44,269 nt of DNA from a virus: positions 1 to 44,269 of the IMG/VR virus record IMGVR_UViG_3300044621_001189; one strand, given 5' to 3'. Position numbers and translations under genes: made by a program. Numbering within the stretch: position 1 is the first letter of the stretch; the number at the start of each line of letters is the position of its first letter. Below the pieces are notes generated by a model that did no database searches, was not told the DNA's origin, and worked only from the letters and a program-made list of their open reading frames with translations. This document shows, one piece after another, positions 3,059 to 22,791 of the stretch.

Positions 3059-3068
3059 AGTCTAATCT

Positions 3069-3143
3069 TCAATATGGCGGGACTCGAACCCGCATCTACA
3101 CCAAGTTTCCCGGTGTCCTCTAACCTAGTTGGGGCACACATTG
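3069..3143 (-). tRNA. tRNA-like gene, atypical anticodon loop (centre AAA)
   Basis: A 75-nt cloverleaf can be drawn. Acceptor CAATGTG pairs with CATATTG (one G-U). The D arm CCCC/GAGG has one mismatch. The anticodon stem is CACCG/TGGTG with 7-nt loop GGAAACT, followed by a 5-nt variable region. The T arm is a perfect GCGGG TTCGAGT CCCGC, and the discriminator is A. No CCA is encoded. Counting the loop gives anticodon AAA (Phe), but position 33 is G where nearly all tRNAs have U. It may be degenerate, repurposed, or decode oddly. A terminator follows immediately. Confidence 0.7.
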
Positions 3144-3149
3144 AAATTC

Positions 3150-6095: not shown

Positions 6096-6210
6096 TGGAG
6101 CTGGTGACAGGATTTGAACCTGTGCGCACGGCATATGAAGTCTGCAAGCTTCGCCGCCACGGGAGGATTGACCCGCTGTTTTCCGCTCTAACCAACTGAG
6201 CTACACCAGC
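6096..6210 (-). tRNA. tRNA-like gene with an enlarged middle (115 nt with CCA)
   Basis: The ends are canonical. The acceptor GCTGGTG pairs perfectly with CACCAGC. The D arm is TAGCTCAGTTGGTTAGAGC, the T arm is ACAGG TTCAAAT CCTGT, and an encoded CCA follows discriminator T. Between the D and T arms lie about 61 nt instead of about 22. A hairpin GGCGAAG-cttgcaga-CTTCatatGCC could act as an extended anticodon arm (candidate anticodons TGC or GCA), with a preceding CGGG/CCCG hairpin. It may be a tRNA with an insertion, a tRNA-like domain of the adjacent large RNA, or a decayed gene. I cannot assign an amino acid. Confidence 0.7.
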
Positions 6211-9714: not shown

Positions 9715-9869
9715 AATAAAACCCCCTGCTTGTCGTTTTTTTCTTCAGCTTGTTTAATTATCACTTTCTTATCAGAATACCCGCGCCGCTTTGCGCACTC
9801 GATCCCGTAAGGCTTACCGTTTACATAGTAAACCTCACGGACTCTTTTATTGCATCGTGCGCAGCGCAT
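9711..9869 (-). CDS. small zinc-finger protein (52 aa)
   Basis: I read this 52-aa frame directly. It starts MRCARCNKRVREVYYVNGKP, then YGIECAKRRGYSD, and ends in a Lys/Glu-rich tail. CxxC plus a later Cys suggests a small zinc ribbon. Its ATG overlaps the stop of the helicase-methyltransferase gene (TAATG), so the two are coupled. Function unknown; it could be a nucleic-acid-binding accessory to its large neighbour (inference). Confidence 0.7.
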   Translation of the reverse strand: MRCARCNKRVREVYYVNGKPYGIECAKRRGYSDKKVIIKQAEEKNDKQGVLF

Positions 9870-12349
9870 TAGTCGATAAAATCAAACAGCGACGGCATTG
9901 TCATTTCTTTTTCTGCTGCAACTAAATACTTAACTCCATCCATAAAATAACCAGTGTTTAATTCGCTAGCTCGCCCCTTGCGACCTTTTTTTATTGCCCG
10001 ATATGGTACTGTTTGCAATCCTCCAAATGGGTCAAAAATCAAATCGCCTTTATTACTGTATCGGTCGATTAATCGATCAACAATATCGAACTGAAGTGGG
10101 CATACGTGCATTTGCAAGTTTTTTGATTTTTGCGCACCGTTTAATGTCAACATGCGGTTCACATCATGCCAAACGTCAGGATTATGCGAACCCGGCGCAA
10201 GGCTCATAAAGCTAGAAGGTAAACATCCTCTACTCTCCAAAGACTCACCTATTTTAATATGGTGTTCATAGTCATATATGTTTTCTAAGCTCCATTCTGT
10301 AAATGCTTTCGCCAATTTATCTGGCGTCATTTCTGCCAGCTCATCTACTGTTAGTTGACGGTTTCCACTGCTTCTCCAAAATGCGTGAGCATCTACCTGC
10401 CAATGTGCGCGAGTATATTCATCTTTTGTTTTTGTCACTGGAACATCAGCATAACCTCGCGTTCTGTCTGTTTGCGGCTTGTGAAATAACAAAATATATT
10501 CTGGCGAACCTGCGCCCATTTTTGTGCCGTCTTTGCATTGCTCTGACCAACCTAAACGGTAGGTTTGATTGTTCTCTCTAACCACATCGGTTACTACTGT
10601 AATCATTCCCATGTAGTCAAACCCGTGTTTTATCCCGTGCATCAAAGCTTCAGCATGAAATGGGCTTACAGTTGGAATGCCAGCGCCGGTTGTGTTACCA
10701 AACAAAATTCGATCCTTTACGTGGCACGCATACACTCGACCTGGGCGCAAAATCTTTAACAGGTTAGGCGTTAAATGATCCATTTGCGACCAGAAGTGAT
10801 TGTTGTTATCTGTGTGACCAAAATCATTGTAGCTGGGCGTGTATTCGTAGTGATTGCTAAATGGTATTGACGTAATAATCATGTCAACGCTGTTTTCATC
10901 CATCATTTGCGTTTCTTTTACGCAATCATTATTAGCTACTAAAAAGTCTTCTCCTTTGATTTCCAACCGCTCAACACCTATGCTGCGGCGCAACAAATCA
11001 GCGTGGCTCAAATTCCCCAATCCATGCTCTTTAATTATGTTTGTCATGTTATTTACCATCTCTTTGTGTTGAGTCCATTTTGTTTCGAGTGCGCGCAATA
11101 TCTCTTGTTCGGATTCTGCATAAATTATGTGAATTTCAACTTCACTTGTTTGCAAAAATCTATACAACCGGTGTATCGCTTGAATAAAATCATTGAACTT
11201 ATATCCAATGCCCATAAAAATAGCTTTATGGCAGTGCCGCTGGAAATTACACCCGCTGCCAGCAATTACAGGCTTTGCACTTAGGTACTTAAATTTACCG
11301 TCTGAAAAGTCCACGATAGCTTGTTCGCGCTCTTCTAAATCTTGCGACCCATAAACGGCCACCGATTCAGGCATTATTTTTTGAATTGAATGCCGTTCAT
11401 CTTCCAAATCATGCCATATAATAAAGTGATCTTCTGGTGATAAATCGATAATCTCTTTCACTTTTTCAGCTCTCAAATCTAAGCTGTCGCGCTTTTCTCT
11501 TGAAGCGTCACGCAAGCTAAGTGCGCTATCCCTAAACATTTTATGCTGTCCCCAGTCATCATGCCCTGCGCTGGAATGGTCAACTTTTATCTCATGATAA
11601 ATAACTTTTAACGGTGGAAGATCGTACCCCTCTGCCGAATGTCCTAAGTCCGCCGGGGATTGAACAAATACTGCCCATGAATTCAACCAAAACCAAAACT
11701 CTTTTTCTTTGTGCGGATATAGCGTTAGGTTATTTGCTTTTGTGCTGTCACGCTGAAAAAACCGCGTCAATGCCTGCCCTGTGTCCATCACCCCCAAATA
11801 ACCAGCGTAGTGAATTAGCTCTTTGTACTTGTTCGGGCTTGGTGTCGCAGTGGCAACAAATTTATATTTAACGTTTGCAAAAAGATCTAAAAATGTTTGA
11901 TATGTTTTTGACCCAAAACTACGCAAAACACTAGCCTCATCTAAGCTGCAAGCTGTAAATATATTTGGGTCTAGTTTTCCATCGCGAACTGATTCGTAAT
12001 TTGTTATATAAAATTCATGCTCATCCATTTCATCCGCAGTGCGGATAAACTTAAAATCTACGCCAAGCATTTTTCCGTCGCGCCTAAATTCTTGCCTCAC
12101 GCCTAGCGGCGCAATAACCAACGCTTTGCCGCCTGCGTTTTTAATCACAAGTCTAAGCGTTTCGATCTGCATTACAGACTTGCCAAGGCCGAAAGCTGCA
12201 AAGATTGCCCTTTTCCCGCCGTTTACTGCCCACTTTACAATGTCGCGCTGGTGCGGTTTTAGGATTGGATTTACTTCTTGATCGTCAACCTCAAAACCTT
12301 GCATTTCGCAAAGCTTTATTTTCCCCTCCAAAAACTCCTCATATTTCAT
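9869..12349 (-). CDS. SNF2-like helicase fused to a DNA methyltransferase (826 aa)
   Basis: A two-domain enzyme. Residues 1-430 are a superfamily-2 helicase: KPHQRDIVKW (31-40), Walker A AFGLGKS (52-58), motif II LDEAS (136-140), motif III VATATPSPN (165-173) and motif VI QAIHRLYR (390-397). Residues about 460-826 are an amino-methyltransferase of the permuted order: motif IV ITSIPFSNHYEY (492-503, catalytic IPF instead of the usual PPY), motif X near 748-761 and the SAM-binding FDPFGGLQT (772-780). No nuclease domain is seen, so it is probably a modification or anti-restriction enzyme, not a restriction system. It overlaps the HTH gene upstream by 11 bp. Confidence 0.88.
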   Translation of the reverse strand: MKYEEFLEGKIKLCEMQGFEVDDQEVNPILKPHQRDIVKWAVNGGKRAIFAAFGLGKSVMQIETLRLVIKNAGGKALVIAPLGVRQEFRRDGKMLGVDFKFIRTADEMDEHEFYITNYESVRDGKLDPNIFTACSLDEASVLRSFGSKTYQTFLDLFANVKYKFVATATPSPNKYKELIHYAGYLGVMDTGQALTRFFQRDSTKANNLTLYPHKEKEFWFWLNSWAVFVQSPADLGHSAEGYDLPPLKVIYHEIKVDHSSAGHDDWGQHKMFRDSALSLRDASREKRDSLDLRAEKVKEIIDLSPEDHFIIWHDLEDERHSIQKIMPESVAVYGSQDLEEREQAIVDFSDGKFKYLSAKPVIAGSGCNFQRHCHKAIFMGIGYKFNDFIQAIHRLYRFLQTSEVEIHIIYAESEQEILRALETKWTQHKEMVNNMTNIIKEHGLGNLSHADLLRRSIGVERLEIKGEDFLVANNDCVKETQMMDENSVDMIITSIPFSNHYEYTPSYNDFGHTDNNNHFWSQMDHLTPNLLKILRPGRVYACHVKDRILFGNTTGAGIPTVSPFHAEALMHGIKHGFDYMGMITVVTDVVRENNQTYRLGWSEQCKDGTKMGAGSPEYILLFHKPQTDRTRGYADVPVTKTKDEYTRAHWQVDAHAFWRSSGNRQLTVDELAEMTPDKLAKAFTEWSLENIYDYEHHIKIGESLESRGCLPSSFMSLAPGSHNPDVWHDVNRMLTLNGAQKSKNLQMHVCPLQFDIVDRLIDRYSNKGDLIFDPFGGLQTVPYRAIKKGRKGRASELNTGYFMDGVKYLVAAEKEMTMPSLFDFID

Positions 12350-17118: not shown

Positions 17119-17147
17119 TTGACACGTTAAATCAATGCGATTATAGT
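17119..17147 (+). promoter_or_regulatory. plus-strand early promoter
   Basis: A consensus -35 TTGACA (17119-17124), 17-base spacer and -10 TATAGT (17142-17147). It drives the recombination genes and the attC cassette array to 22183. Confidence 0.85.
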
Positions 17148-18866: not shown

Positions 18867-19256
18867 ATGAAAATAACGTCAGCAAAAACGCTAATGGCGT
18901 GGTGCAAGCAGGCTCCTAAAGTGCGCGAGCGTATCGTTTGGGATGAGTTGCCAGATAATCAAAAAGATTCTGCTGTAGTAGCTTTCCAGCTTGATCTAGG
19001 AACGCCTCACGCTATCACAATAGCTAACAGGCTCAATCTTAAAACCTGCGCTCAAAACGTAAAGGAAAGCGCGCTACGCAATACCGAGTATGAGCTTCAA
19101 TACTTGGTTAGACAGTACAACGATATGCTTGATTTGCAAGATGCTGAGCTATCAACCGAACGTGAACAAAGCTACTGCAAAAAAACATTTAACAGCATCT
19201 TTGGAGTTAACCAATCAATGTTCGACGCAGGGCACAAACCGAGCGACTTTTGCTAA
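18867..19256 (+). CDS. hypothetical protein (129 aa)
   Basis: A 129-aa protein starting MKITSAKTLMAWCKQAPKVR, with AAGGGGAAGGAA upstream. It is mostly helical with FQLDLGTPHAITIANRLNLK in the middle, and ends AGHKPSDFC. No family recognised. It lies upstream of the first attC site and is separated from the next gene by only 10 bases. Confidence 0.78.
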   Translation: MKITSAKTLMAWCKQAPKVRERIVWDELPDNQKDSAVVAFQLDLGTPHAITIANRLNLKTCAQNVKESALRNTEYELQYLVRQYNDMLDLQDAELSTEREQSYCKKTFNSIFGVNQSMFDAGHKPSDFC

Positions 19257-19266
19257 GGGGTAAATA

Positions 19267-19605
19267 ATGGAACACTATCACAGCGTAATTGCATTTATCG
19301 CATTCTTTGCAGCGATCTTTTTTTACATTAGGTTGAGCGACGCAATTAGCAAAAAGCTGAAAAATAGATTGGCAAAAAAGCGCGGATTTGCAAACTTAAA
19401 GGTCGGTAGCGTGATCACAAACAAAATACCAGAGCCGGGAATGCCGTCAATCCCGATTTGGGGCAATGCGATAGTAGAGAACCGCGAGACCGGAAAGCGC
19501 CTACCAGTGTGCATAGATACTACAGGCATGTGGCACTTAGGCGGTGAAGAAACAGTTCCTCTTCGGCTGTCTAATCGCGAGTGGTTTATTGTTGATAAGA
19601 GATAA
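19267..19605 (+). CDS. membrane-anchored protein, first cassette-like gene (112 aa)
   Basis: A 112-aa protein starting MEHYHSVIAFIAFFAAIFFY. One N-terminal transmembrane segment (residues 7-22) precedes a basic stretch (SKKLKNRLAKKRG) and a beta-rich soluble domain (SIPIWGNAIVENRETGKRLP, ending NREWFIVDKR). Its TAA stop is part of the first attC site, as is common for integron cassettes. Function unknown. Confidence 0.78.
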   Translation: MEHYHSVIAFIAFFAAIFFYIRLSDAISKKLKNRLAKKRGFANLKVGSVITNKIPEPGMPSIPIWGNAIVENRETGKRLPVCIDTTGMWHLGGEETVPLRLSNREWFIVDKR

Positions 19606-19684
19606 CGCTGAGTTAAAAGGCGGCGGGGAATATGATTTAAGAACGGCGGCTTAAATTCCGTCAATTTTCATAGCCTTGTTACAT
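19600..19684 (+). repeat. attC-like recombination site 1 (85 nt)
   Basis: 5' box AGATAAC-GCTGAG; 3' box GTTACAT preceded by AGCCTT. An inner stem TTTAAG/CTTAAA and GGAAT/ATTCC is present. The L-arm pairing CGG/CCG with an unpaired T is weaker than in the other copies. The stop codon of the preceding gene lies in the 5' box. Confidence 0.65.
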
Positions 19685-19709
19685 TTATTTAATTTTATTG
19701 AGGTGATGT

Positions 19710-20240
19710 ATGGAATTTAAAGAGTTTCCGAAAATGGCGCGTTGGTCACGCGAGATAATTATAACCGAGAAATTGGACGGTACAAACGCAAGTATTTTTA
19801 TTGGCGAAGATGGCGAGTTTTTGACTGGTAGCCGCACCCGCTGGATTACACCAGAAGACGACAACTTTGGGTTTAGCAAGTGGGCGCATGAAAACAAAGA
19901 AGAGCTTTTAAAGCTTGGGGCTGGCACCCACTTTGGTGAGTGGTGGGGTCTTGGGATTCAAAGAAACTACGGGCTAAAGGAAAAGCGCTTTTCGCTTTTT
20001 AATGCGCACCGATGGGCAAATGATAGGCCAGAATGTTGCGGAGTTGTGCCTGTGATTTACAGTGGTATTAACTACGCTGGCGCGGTAGATGATGCAATGG
20101 CAAAGCTTGTTAAAAATGGAAGTTTTGCCGCTGAAGGTTTTATGAATCCAGAGGGGATTGTGCTGTTCCATGTGGCCGCACAAACAGGATTTAAGAAAAC
20201 AGTACATAAAGACGAGCAGCCAAAGTCATTAGCCCGCTGA
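19710..20240 (+). CDS. RNA ligase (T4 Rnl2-like) carried between attC sites
   Basis: A 176-aa covalent nucleotidyltransferase. Motif I is EKLDGTN with the AMP-accepting Lys21. Motif III is FGEWWG (75-80) with IIIa RFSLFNA (93-99), motif IV is PEGIVLF (147-153) and motif V is FKKTVHKDE (161-169). All catalytic elements are present, and the protein ends soon after motif V, so it is a minimal ligase core. It would seal 3'-OH/5'-PO4 RNA ends, for example after tRNA cleavage by host defence nucleases (inference). Flanked by attC 1 and 2. Confidence 0.85.
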   Translation: MEFKEFPKMARWSREIIITEKLDGTNASIFIGEDGEFLTGSRTRWITPEDDNFGFSKWAHENKEELLKLGAGTHFGEWWGLGIQRNYGLKEKRFSLFNAHRWANDRPECCGVVPVIYSGINYAGAVDDAMAKLVKNGSFAAEGFMNPEGIVLFHVAAQTGFKKTVHKDEQPKSLAR

Positions 20241-20243
20241 TGA

Positions 20244-20327
20244 ATGTAACGCCGAGCTAAAAGGCGCTGGCACATTAAACGAAATTTAACCGACGCTAGC
20301 AGCGTCCTTTTCAACGACTTGTTACAT
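20244..20327 (+). repeat. attC-like recombination site 2 (84 nt)
   Basis: 5' box ATGTAAC-GCCGAG and 3' box GTTACAT are perfect inverse complements. Arms AAAAGG-CGCT and AGCG-T-CCTTTT pair with one unpaired T, the attC hallmark. CGACTT precedes the 3' box. It starts 4 bases after the ligase stop. Confidence 0.88.
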
Positions 20328-20368
20328 GTTGTAGCAGGTTTAATTTAACCAAGTGAGAGGTTTTTAAA

Positions 20369-20572
20369 ATGCCATTGTTTCGCAAAAAAGGCACGCAAGA
20401 ATTAACACCGTGGATACCTGAAATTGATATGAATGGAGTTAGTATTTCCGACTCAGACAAAACCAACGGAAGCCCAAAAGCAGGCGATATGATCGCCATA
20501 AATAAAAACGACCCAACAGACCGATGGCTGGTAGCTGAGAAATTCTTTAACGACAACTACGAGCCTGCATAA
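20369..20572 (+). CDS. small cassette protein (67 aa)
   Basis: A 67-aa protein starting MPLFRKKGTQELTPWIPEID, then DSDKTNGSPKAGDMIAINKN, ending FFNDNYEPA. GAGAGG lies upstream. The pattern PKAGDMIAINKNDPTDRWLV resembles small phage proteins with a beta-barrel. Function unknown. It lies between attC 2 and a degenerate site. Confidence 0.75.
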   Translation: MPLFRKKGTQELTPWIPEIDMNGVSISDSDKTNGSPKAGDMIAINKNDPTDRWLVAEKFFNDNYEPA

Positions 20573-20645
20573 ATTAACCGCCGCGCTCTCACAGGCAGCA
20601 TGTAACGCTGCGATAAAACGCAGCCCACAAAACAACTAATTTATT
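20573..20645 (+). repeat. degenerate attC-like remnant
   Basis: CATGTAACGCTGCGATAAAA (20599-20618) matches the 5' end of attC 2 and 7 closely, and a GCTGCG/CGCAGC hairpin follows, but no GTTRRRY 3' box is present. The bases just before resemble an internal part of attC 2 (AAATTAACCGCCGC). It may be a site that lost its right half. Confidence 0.4.
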
Positions 20646-20658
20646 GGAGTAAGAATTT

Positions 20659-20934
20659 ATGAAAAACTTAAAACCAAGCTACTTATGGGCTGTCGTTCTC
20701 ATTGCCTTGTTATGCGCTGCTTGCAACAAGGTTCCGGAAGAAACTAGCCAAACCTCAAACCCAAATGTGAAGGTTGAAAAGCTATTCACGCATGACGGTT
20801 GCACCGTTTATAGATTCTACGATGGCGGGCGCGACCACTATTTTTCAAAGTGCGAGAATGCGAAAACCCAAACAATAAGCGAACAAAGCTGTGGCAGAGG
20901 CTGTGTTAGAGACGAAGTTATTTCTGGTAATTAA
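20659..20934 (+). CDS. small lipoprotein (91 aa)
   Basis: An N-terminal signal MKNLKPSYLWAVVLIALLCA ends in a lipobox-like CAAC (acylated Cys22 expected; Leu at -3 is replaced by Cys). The mature part is Cys-rich (DGCTVYRFYDGG, SKCENAKTQ, SCGRGC) and likely periplasmic with disulfides. TTGGAGTAAG precedes the ATG. It is followed by attC 4. Short phage lipoproteins of this kind often block superinfection, but here this is only inference. Confidence 0.8.
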   Translation: MKNLKPSYLWAVVLIALLCAACNKVPEETSQTSNPNVKVEKLFTHDGCTVYRFYDGGRDHYFSKCENAKTQTISEQSCGRGCVRDEVISGN

Positions 20935-20935
20935 C

Positions 20936-21022
20936 GCATAACGCCAAGTTCAGCGGTGCGCTGACTGAGCAAAATTAAGAACTGATATGGCAACGCATCC
21001 GCGCTGCAACGACTTGTTATAT
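20936..21022 (+). repeat. attC-like recombination site 4 (87 nt)
   Basis: 5' box GCATAAC-GCCAAG and 3' box GTTATAT preceded by CGACTT. Arms CAGCGGTGCG and CGCATCCGCGCTG pair with extra bases in the right arm. The site starts 2 bases after the lipoprotein stop. Confidence 0.85.
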
Positions 21023-21034
21023 TGGAGAGATGAA

Positions 21035-21238
21035 ATGTTTTGCAAACACCAATGGGAAGTGCTTTCAGAAACTACTACAGAAAGCCAGTTTGAACACGCA
21101 ATGAAAGTGGCTCAATCAAGAGGCGCGCAGGGTAGCATCAAAATACCCGGACAAATGAGTTGCGCCGAAAGAAAGCATATTTTAGTTGTTACCTGCAAAA
21201 AATGCGGAAAGATTAAGAGATTTGTTGAAACAATATAA
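21035..21238 (+). CDS. small zinc-binding cassette protein (67 aa)
   Basis: The start at 21035 (MFCKHQWEVLSETTTESQFE) has GGAGAG seven bases upstream. An upstream in-frame ATG lies inside attC 4 and is rejected. An N-terminal CKH and a late CKKCGK give a Cx(H)-CxxC zinc-binding pattern seen in small phage proteins. The C-terminus ends IKRFVETI, and the stop lies in attC 5. Function unknown. Confidence 0.78.
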   Translation: MFCKHQWEVLSETTTESQFEHAMKVAQSRGAQGSIKIPGQMSCAERKHILVVTCKKCGKIKRFVETI

Positions 21239-21318
21239 CGCCGAGATTTGCGGCGCGCATTGCGATAGTAACGACTGGGCGCGACCTACGCCGCGTCCGC
21301 AACATTGACTTGTTATAA
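21233..21318 (+). repeat. attC-like recombination site 5 (86 nt)
   Basis: 5' box ATATAAC-GCCGAG and 3' box GTTATAA preceded by TGACTT. Arms TTGCGG-CGCG and CGCG-T-CCGCAA pair perfectly with a single unpaired T. The stop of the zinc-binding gene is within the 5' box. The clearest attC of the array. Confidence 0.9.
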
Positions 21319-21328
21319 AGGTGCTAAC

Positions 21329-21544
21329 GTGAAAAACAAACAACTAGTTGATCTTGGCAAAAAGATTAAAGCCTTGCGCAAAGCCAGAAAAATGAGCCAA
21401 GAGACTTTGGCTTTTGACTCCAATATTGACCGATCACACATAAGCCGAATTGAGCGCGGTGAGACAAACCCGACTTATTTGATGCTGTACGCAATGGCAC
21501 AAGCGTTTGGTATTTCTGTGCTTGAGATTTTCTTGATTGGGTAG
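21329..21544 (+). CDS. XRE-family regulator cassette (71 aa)
   Basis: The GTG start at 21329 has AAAGGTG upstream; an upstream TTG in frame lies in attC 5 and is rejected. The protein is a typical XRE/Cro HTH: LGKKIKALRKARKMSQETLA, then DRSHISRIERGETNPTYLML and YAMAQAFGISVLEIF. It could control cassette or early-operon expression, or host genes. Flanked by attC 5 and 6. Confidence 0.85.
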   Translation: MKNKQLVDLGKKIKALRKARKMSQETLAFDSNIDRSHISRIERGETNPTYLMLYAMAQAFGISVLEIFLIG

Positions 21545-21546
21545 CT

Positions 21547-21629
21547 TTATAACGCCGAGATTTGCGGCGGCTGGGAATAAACGAACAGGGCGAGATTCTA
21601 ATTCCGTCCGTAATATTGACTGGTTACAT
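21547..21629 (+). repeat. attC-like recombination site 6 (83 nt)
   Basis: 5' box TTATAAC-GCCGAG and 3' box GTTACAT preceded by TGACTG. Arms TTGCGG-CGG and CCG-T-CCGTAA pair with one G-U and an unpaired T. It contains ATTCTAATTCCGTC, shared with site 7. Confidence 0.85.
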
Positions 21630-21662
21630 TTGCATAGCAATTTACTTTTTGGAGTATTGGTG

Positions 21663-21842
21663 ATGCTAAAAGAATTTTTAAAACGGTTATTTTGCAGGCA
21701 CAAGAATATTTATTTTATTCGCAACATTTACGGAGATGAAATAAACCAAGTATCAGACTCAAAAACGTACCGCTCTTGGTGGAAGTGCGCGGATTGCGAT
21801 AAATTTGTTAAGAAAGAAAAGCTGGCTGAAAAGTATTGGTGA
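21663..21842 (+). CDS. small zinc-binding cassette protein (59 aa)
   Basis: The start at 21663 (MLKEFLKRLFCRHKNIYFIR) follows GGAG at 21651; a GTG one codon upstream is possible. CRH near the N-terminus and KCADCDK near the C-terminus give the same Cx(H)...CxxC layout as the protein at 21035, and a Trp pair (SWWKC) precedes the second site. Function unknown. The stop lies 1 base before attC 7. Confidence 0.75.
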   Translation: MLKEFLKRLFCRHKNIYFIRNIYGDEINQVSDSKTYRSWWKCADCDKFVKKEKLAEKYW

Positions 21843-21926
21843 ATGTAACGCCGAGCTAAAGCGCGGCTGAACCAAGCTGCGTAAATGTGAAATTCTAATT
21901 CCGTCGCTTTGAGCGACTTGTTAAGT
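21843..21926 (+). repeat. attC-like recombination site 7 (84 nt)
   Basis: 5' box ATGTAAC-GCCGAG and 3' box GTTAAGT preceded by CGACTT. Arms AAAGCG-CGG and CCG-T-CGCTTT pair perfectly with one unpaired T. Confidence 0.9.
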
Positions 21927-21967: not shown

Positions 21968-22183
21968 ATGAACGTAGGTGAATTGAAAAAATTGTTGGAG
22001 CAATACCCAGATGATATGGAAGTTATACAAGAGATTTATAGTGACTATGGCATGGTTGGTGAAGGTGATTTCTCAGTTGTTAAGGCGGTGCCAAAGCAGG
22101 GGTGGATTATGCGCGACCACCCGACAATGAGCCAAGAGAATAAACTAGCAGCTAGAGAGTATTTGTGTATTGCGGGTAACTAG
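21968..22183 (+). CDS. small conserved phage protein (71 aa)
   Basis: The start at 21968 (MNVGELKKLLEQYPDDMEVI) has ACGGAG nine bases upstream; a GTG two codons before is too close to it. The N-terminus matches the common phage/plasmid pattern LKKLLEQYPDDMEV followed by a short acidic strand. Function unknown. Last gene of the plus-strand operon, followed by terminators, with no attC after it. Confidence 0.8.
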   Translation: MNVGELKKLLEQYPDDMEVIQEIYSDYGMVGEGDFSVVKAVPKQGWIMRDHPTMSQENKLAAREYLCIAGN

Positions 22184-22194
22184 CCACACTTAAC

Positions 22195-22285: not shown

Positions 22286-22309
22286 CCGTATATTTACGGT
22301 TTTTATTTT
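22286..22309 (+). terminator. rho-independent terminator of plus operon
   Basis: CCGTA TATT TACGG followed by TTTTTATTTT. It overlaps the 3' end of the convergent Rz gene by 7 bases and separates the two converging transcripts. Confidence 0.65.
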
Positions 22310-22791
22310 GGTTGGCAAAAATCAGGATGCGATCTGGCTGCAACTTCGGACTGCAACCCCTGAATCATCCAAAGCGCCTTTTTCTGAGCTTCGATCAAAC
22401 GGTAATAATCTGATCCGTTAATTTCTGCAAATCCGGCGCTGGTTGCATTAGATCCTGCGGCGCTGGTGGCGGCACCGGACACTGGGCAGGTGGATTTGAT
22501 GCGCACCCGAGGAACACAAGACTTATCAGCGATGCAAGCGTGAAGTTTTTCCAGTTCTTTGGCATTTTCGTTGGCTCTCTGTTGTGATTCGATTGCGCGC
22601 TCGCTTGCAGCTTTTGATTCTGCGCGTTCTTTCGCTATCAGCGCTTCGCCAGCTTCGATTTCAGCTTGTTTCGCCTCAATCTCTACCGCTAGCCGCCCAT
22701 TAGCCTGTATCTGCTTGTAAAGGCCATAGGAGGCCAATGCAAGCGACACAGTTAAAGCTCCTGCAGTGATCAATAGCGGCTTTGCTAGCAT
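22303..22791 (-). CDS. Rz: Rz-like inner-membrane spanin (162 aa)
   Basis: The N-terminal transmembrane anchor (LLITAGALTVSLALASYGLY, residues 6-25) is followed by a long charged coiled coil (residues about 30-85: AVEIEAKQAEIEAGEALIAK). The periplasmic C-terminus has several Cys (ACIADKSC, CPVS). This is the i-spanin layout: with Rz1 it fuses inner and outer membranes at lysis. The start overlaps the adhesin gene stop. Last gene of the late operon. Confidence 0.9.
   Translation of the reverse strand: MLAKPLLITAGALTVSLALASYGLYKQIQANGRLAVEIEAKQAEIEAGEALIAKERAESKAASERAIESQQRANENAKELEKLHACIADKSCVPRVRIKSTCPVSGAATSAAGSNATSAGFAEINGSDYYRLIEAQKKALWMIQGLQSEVAARSHPDFCQPK
22395..22565 (-). CDS. Rz1: Rz1-like outer-membrane spanin lipoprotein, nested in Rz
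   Basis: I read this 56-aa frame in the +1 frame inside Rz, starting MPKNWKNFTLASLISLVFLG. The lipobox LVFLGC predicts acylation at Cys21, and the mature protein is Pro-rich (CPVPPPAPQDLMQPAPD), the classical Rz1 pattern. It is entirely embedded in Rz, as in lambda. It pairs with Rz across the periplasm. Confidence 0.9.
   Translation of the reverse strand: MPKNWKNFTLASLISLVFLGCASNPPAQCPVPPPAPQDLMQPAPDLQKLTDQIITV

Follow-up and report, generated by a model that had tools for sequence, protein, structure and literature searches.

The window analysed here, the whole 44,269-nt viral record IMGVR_UViG_3300044621_001189, contains seven small plus-strand genes between an annealase/single-stranded DNA-binding protein (SSB) operon and a spanin gene, with a site of ~80 nt ahead of each. 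We read this arrangement, with a probability of roughly 0.8, as a mobile array of seven cassettes with attC sites, which are recombined as circles at their R boxes, probably by a host integron integrase (IntI) provided in trans. The six sites described in the original prediction are real attC-type sites by their arms, extrahelical base and R boxes, and its central idea of integron cassettes in a phage lacking an integrase is strongly supported. Its account of the attC architecture was nonetheless incomplete, as the inverted polarity of the sites had been overlooked.

attC sites and the trace of former circles

All six sites are present with their TAAC and GTTA boxes. Their TAAC..GTTA cores measure 77–81 nt, or 83–87 nt with the outer trinucleotides included, and they possess the R''/L''/L'/R' arms and extrahelical base of attC; the base left unpaired in the right arm, said earlier to be a T, is not T in every site. 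Two covariance models were used: R1, built from 24 bacterial attC sites in the integron-canonical alignment with only the R and L arms paired (the sources being bacterial loci in genome_contigs with a matching core motif), and R2, built from 108 phage matches. With filters off and the whole 44 kb searched, R1 placed the six sites first to sixth, the next match scoring 10.2 bits, so the covariance search that had been proposed as a check recovers all of them. The sites, in order, are A (19603–19681; R1 15.7 bits, R2 42.8 bits), B (20247–20324; 40.4 and 55.2 bits), C (20939–21019; 46.4 and 69.1 bits), D (21236–21315; 46.9 and 59.0 bits), E (21550–21626; 25.7 and 57.9 bits) and F (21846–21923; 43.6 and 61.6 bits). 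All six give minus-strand matches in the canonical orientation, opposite to the plus-strand genes, and are thus inverted relative to the integron convention.

The earlier count missed two elements: a weak seventh site, B2 (20603–20712, minus strand; R2 27.6 bits), with complementary TGC/GCA outer trinucleotides, and a terminal R half-box, ACT-TAAC (22188–22194, plus strand), which forms the right boundary of the array. B2 overlaps the start of the ORF at 20659, placing the next gene's start codon inside the attC. Long attC variants of 110–139 nt also occur among the numbered loci fetched for comparison with the window (L-numbers below), at L105 12302–12718, L005 3671–3809 and L012 6378–6511, and in the L105 region a gene start again appears to lie inside the long site.

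Across the 108 phage attC sites the arms covary, with 94.0% of cells paired versus 74.3% after shuffling and a covariation of 0.473 versus 0.108, slid versions reaching at most 0.11. Covarying hairpin arms, at sites that each stand just ahead of a start codon, would also suit RNA elements of an early operon, such as 5' leader hairpins or terminators, rather than DNA recombination sites, and an additional, secondary leader role is possible. As an explanation of the sites themselves this is extremely unlikely: among the standard pairs in 1,078 cells just 2 are G-U, much as in bacterial attC (1 in 240 cells), the extra base, R boxes and spacers are those of bacterial attC, and RNA elements predict neither complementarity between neighbouring sites nor the turnover of cassettes described below. 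A home-made TAAC..GTTA pairing score failed to separate the sites from Markov shuffles, which is why covariance models were adopted, and Rfam reported no attC at its gathering threshold.

Once a cassette is integrated, one R box pair is divided between the two ends of the unit, half at each. This signature is widespread in the phage arrays: the trinucleotide to the right of one site is the reverse complement of that to the left of the next in 108 of 119 units, against a shuffled expectation of 17.5/119 (P<0.0002); the outer trinucleotides of one and the same attC show no complementarity (18 versus 19.6). The six intervals between sites of the window, with the weak seventh site included, are all complementary (CAT/ATG, CAT/ATG, TGC/GCA, TAT/ATA, TAA/TTA, CAT/ATG), and the AGT following site F pairs with the ACT at the terminal box (22191), which brings the total to seven of seven units. 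The same holds at the terminal box for the final unit in each of L105, L092 and L031, and bacterial intI arrays obey the same rule (21/34 versus 2.1 shuffled). Such complementary unit ends are direct evidence of former circles closed at the R box.

Reversed polarity and turnover of units

In 12 intI-linked bacterial stretches, every attC has the canonical direction with respect to intI, and 34 of 36 intervals have genes that follow the direction of the attC. In the phages, genes run against the attC in 109 of 120 intervals and in all 27 of 27 records (109:11 inverted versus 2:34; Fisher p=2e-22). This bias does not stem from selection, since the patterns run against the database were blind to genes and covered both strands alike. 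The arrangement expected of an ordinary CALIN (cluster of attC sites lacking integron integrases), in which the gene runs with an attC at its 3' end, is therefore not that of the phages, and the inverted polarity implies that the phage unit consists of an attC plus its downstream gene. Each unit comprises one attC and then one gene, the stop codon of which is the next R box or lies a few bases before it; in 59 of the 109 units, a TAA stop shares bases with the R box that follows. A viral-collection contig, L030, carries a single attC (577–677) in canonical bacterial polarity and is perhaps not phage DNA.

Comparison with related phages had been suggested as a check, and it revealed turnover cassette by cassette, bounded at the TAAC/GTTA boxes and with shared flanks, rather than relatives sharing the whole segment unchanged. 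The left flank of the window recurs in L027 and L105 (~88%) as far as the first site's TA(A/G)C, beyond which the three carry entirely different sets of attC sites and genes. Homology with the window resumes at the TAAC at 22191 in L105, L092 and L031. The cassette genes of the window have no homologues among the fetched loci. Single units are also held in common: L015 and L032 share one unit at 97% identity over 459 nt, running from the TAAC of an attC to the next TAAC, and the pairs L009/L015, L019/L027 and L019/L023 have exactly GTTA..TAAC in common while their attC sites differ. These boundaries imply crossovers at both R boxes, the simplest explanation being that both strands are used. 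Gain and loss of single cassettes bounded at the R box is thus supported by both turnover and unit sharing.

Homologous recombination is a rival source of such shuffling, and Sak-like annealase and SSB genes do adjoin the array on its upstream side; the sites would then merely be attC-like repeats, and those within one attC family, up to 90% alike, would permit exchange. We disfavour this explanation as quite improbable. The breakpoints fall at boxes of 4–7 nt with unrelated sequence beyond them, random attC pairs share only ~60% identity, at one and the same TA(A/G)C three phages each continue into a different attC, and the complementarity between the end of one attC and the start of the next would go unexplained.

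The arrays might instead be pieces of a host integron, i.e., an ordinary CALIN gained by illegitimate recombination and passively carried. The attC core is of the bacterial kind, and this view has been published for some phages (Qi et al. 2023, PMC9892861). It is very unlikely here, given the opposite polarity, the phage-typical attC families, the several genes that belong to phage families, the conserved ends enclosing wholly different content, the single cassettes common to different phages and a circle signature intact in 108/119 units. Opposite polarity, a phage-typical attC family and phage-type genes together imply that the phage is not simply collecting host cassettes.

In total, ~190 attC sites were found on 33 viral contigs (tallied over distinct contigs) with several terminase types, and up to 11 sites occur in one stretch. 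Several records of 33–65 kb lack a homologue of the window's terminase, which indicates that arrays occur on more than one phage backbone. Other relatives, L001, L002 and L003, carry no attC site; the terminase closest to that of the window (86%) is in the L003 record. Such sites are also absent from two Manatee Spring phages whose capsid protein is related, and neither R1 nor R2 matched phages TJE1 and P12002L. Some stretches contain two attC clusters (L176, 2246–4880 and 11041–11640; L015, 860–2810 and 6998–7356), and the two clusters of L015 face opposite ways.

The probable enzyme and the link to host integrons

As the original prediction had noted, no integrase is visible in the record: the Phage_integrase domain (PF00589) is absent, and neither an intI gene nor an attI was seen in this possibly incomplete record, which therefore does not present a complete integron. 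With its seven sites and no integron integrase nearby, the array does have the make-up of a CALIN, defined by at least two attC sites. The tyrosine recombinase domain is missing not only from the window but from 30 of 31 related records; L024 (65 kb) was the sole attC-bearing viral record of the 31 searched that possessed one. attC sites are substrates of IntI, and because the phages lack an integrase of their own, a host IntI acting in trans is the favoured enzyme. It would act during infection on phage attC sites folded as single strands, and units would leave and enter as circles through site-specific recombination at the R boxes (between TAA and C on the plus strand, equivalent to between G and TTA on the minus strand). 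The array being flanked by fixed phage genes, the phage operon would provide for the expression of incoming cassettes. The same enzyme would handle phage units and bacterial cassettes, each of them read backwards in the other's array.

A link to host integrons was found in Rheinheimera nanhaiensis, where a chromosomal integron with intI at L138 3808–4755 holds one unit with a phage-typical attC. This attC is 85% identical to one attC of L105, compared with 60% for random pairs, and the reversed gene of the unit (63 aa) terminates within the following R box; the ends of the unit are complementary (TAG/CTA). We read it as a phage-type cassette that a host integrase probably inserted, with orientation set by the attC. 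Other integrons of the genus Rheinheimera examined for phage-type units looked canonical. The predicted acquisition of genes through host integron integrases is thus favoured, on the strength of the 30 records without a recombinase domain and the reversed Rheinheimera cassette. Phage-type attC arrays or flank sequences in L074 and L092 (MAG F1-60-MAGs008) were binned with a gammaproteobacterial genome, and the same bin also has an intI (G017:C150), which could point to a host or stem from the binning.

A recombinase other than IntI, phage-borne or from another mobile element and missed by PF00589, could conceivably move the units. The polarity unlike that of bacterial cassettes, the shared blocks of gene alone, which imply both R boxes, and the weak hairpins would all suit such an enzyme. 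It is nevertheless unlikely, as no candidate was identified in the part of the proteins examined, a phage-type unit sits inside an IntI integron, and IntI1 recombines attC sites of the same polarity from phage PH101 (PMC9892861).

Several observations weigh against IntI-mediated mobility as proposed here. No attI was seen, and the 63-aa gene of R. nanhaiensis had no relative among the phage loci searched and no PHROG match. The bacterial sites underlying R1 were found through a pattern derived from the window, and the sequence component of that model is not wholly independent; the pairing, polarity and trinucleotide tests are unaffected by this origin. Finally, folding, which had been suggested as a check, did not yield the hairpins: in unconstrained folding of single-stranded DNA, the attC hairpin is not the minimum, and forcing it costs ~3.6 kcal/mol for phage sites, versus 1.6 for bacterial sites and 7.8 for random sequence. 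Of the two strands, the canonical bottom one folds at the lower cost in 74% of phage sites and in 91% of bacterial ones. Such a costly hairpin suggests that recombination in phages may be rarer or may need help from IntI or SSB.

Earlier work has described clusters of attC sites in virulent phages and shown that IntI1 acts on such sites (Qi et al. 2023, PMC9892861). That paper reports a survey with 17 CALINs in 10,705 genomes and recombination by IntI1 of five of six phage attC sites tested, a set that included two from PH101. By our own reading of its sequence, the attC sites of Pseudoalteromonas phage H101/PH101 have the same inverted polarity as those described here, and the virulent-phage CALINs are, like the present arrays, attC clusters without an integrase. 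The passages drawn on here make no mention of inversion, turnover among relatives, unit sharing or a phage-specific pool. Likewise, reversed polarity, a landing zone that turns over fully and a phage cassette pool were not found in the open literature searched, and as far as found, it is the reversed polarity and the array turnover that are new, phage attC clusters being already known.

Two other systems invite comparison. The sedentary chromosomal integrons of gammaproteobacteria (R. nanhaiensis, Marinobacter alexandrii, Simiduia and others) share the attC core, covarying arms, extra base and circle signature, but they possess their own intI, genes that run with the attC and GC-rich inner stems that fold more easily. 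Phage accessory and anti-defence clusters share short genes, some of them counter-defensive in appearance (Lar, Acb2/Tad1, methyltransferase); unlike in those clusters, each gene of the arrays is an individually bounded cassette with its own exchange site.

Gene setting, cargo and significance

Terminase, portal, major head protein, head-closure protein, endolysin and spanin genes, all on the minus strand, identify the 44.3-kb record as a phage genome and not a host chromosome; an INPHARED nucleotide search found no relative. On the plus strand, the annealase/SSB operon leads into the array. The consensus early promoter claimed for the array comes down to one putative sigma70-like site (TTGACA-17-TATAGT, 11/12 consensus; 17119–17147, plus strand) ahead of this operon and 2.4 kb upstream of the first attC, and promoter-like sites in the region are not in excess (7 versus 9.5 by chance). 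Two conserved plus-strand genes form the left flank: one of unknown function (18867–19256; 89–90% protein identity in L027 and L105), and a second (19267–19605; 77–80% in the same loci) whose TAA stop is the first R box. To the right lies a conserved minus-strand gene for an Rz-like spanin (22303–22791; phrog_13, 2.8e-10; 82–85% in L027, L102 and L103). Between this gene and the array, the terminal half-box is followed by the terminator-like AGCGGAATAAACGG..CCGCTTTTT; the T-run after 22194 makes the predicted terminator plausible, yet the scan did not detect it.

The seven cassette genes, all on the plus strand, begin with an RNA-ligase family protein (gene 1, 19710–20240; PF09414 5.7e-10, phrog_548 8.6e-31). 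Gene 2 (20369–20572) is an ORF of unknown function with no family match below E 0.1, gene 3 (20659–20934) is lipoprotein-like (DUF4884/phrog_6360, phrog_902), and gene 4 (21035–21238) belongs to phage family phrog_5841 (4.2e-17). They are followed by a small Cro/C1-type helix-turn-helix (HTH) protein (gene 5, 21329–21544; PF01381 1.6e-17), a member of phage family phrog_3036 (gene 6, 21663–21842; 3.5e-08) and an ORF of unknown function that closes the last unit (gene 7, 21968–22183).

Elsewhere in the window, on the minus strand, ARAGORN called a tRNA-Phe with the unusual anticodon AAA (3068–3144; Rfam tRNA 36 bits). A second tRNA match of 112 nt (6099–6210; 46 bits), which ARAGORN did not call, has ~40 additional bases separating the D arm from the T arm, perhaps an insertion in the anticodon region. 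An 826-aa protein (9869–12349) matches a phage DNA helicase family over its full length; its C-terminal half also matches a DNA methyltransferase family.

Family searches over the 119 units recovered three Lar-like restriction-alleviation genes (one of them just below the Pfam cut-off), an Acb2/Tad1-like gene, a DNA methyltransferase, the RNA-ligase-like gene of the window, an exonuclease, an HTH protein and many phage families without an assigned function. Judged from these sequence matches, the cargo suggests counter-defence as a theme. Given the inverted polarity, phages would draw on a largely separate cassette pool of partly counter-defence-like genes, and it is an even bet that this pool is private to them: a reverse-polarity store shared by phages of several lineages, with phage-typical attC sites, rich in counter-defence genes, exchanged through host IntI at co-infection and insulated from host cassettes by its polarity.

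Phage attC clusters known earlier were isolated curiosities; here, a whole set of phages keeps fixed landing zones in which the cassettes are fully replaced from one relative to another. The reversed polarity provides a simple rule separating phage from host cassettes, and it predicts two gene pools that have one enzyme in common but not the direction of expression. If host IntI is the agent, phages would be exchanging counter-defence genes by means of a bacterial enzyme, and the arms race between phages and integrons would become directly testable. A private phage pool, if true, would be the viral counterpart of the host integron's store of defence genes.

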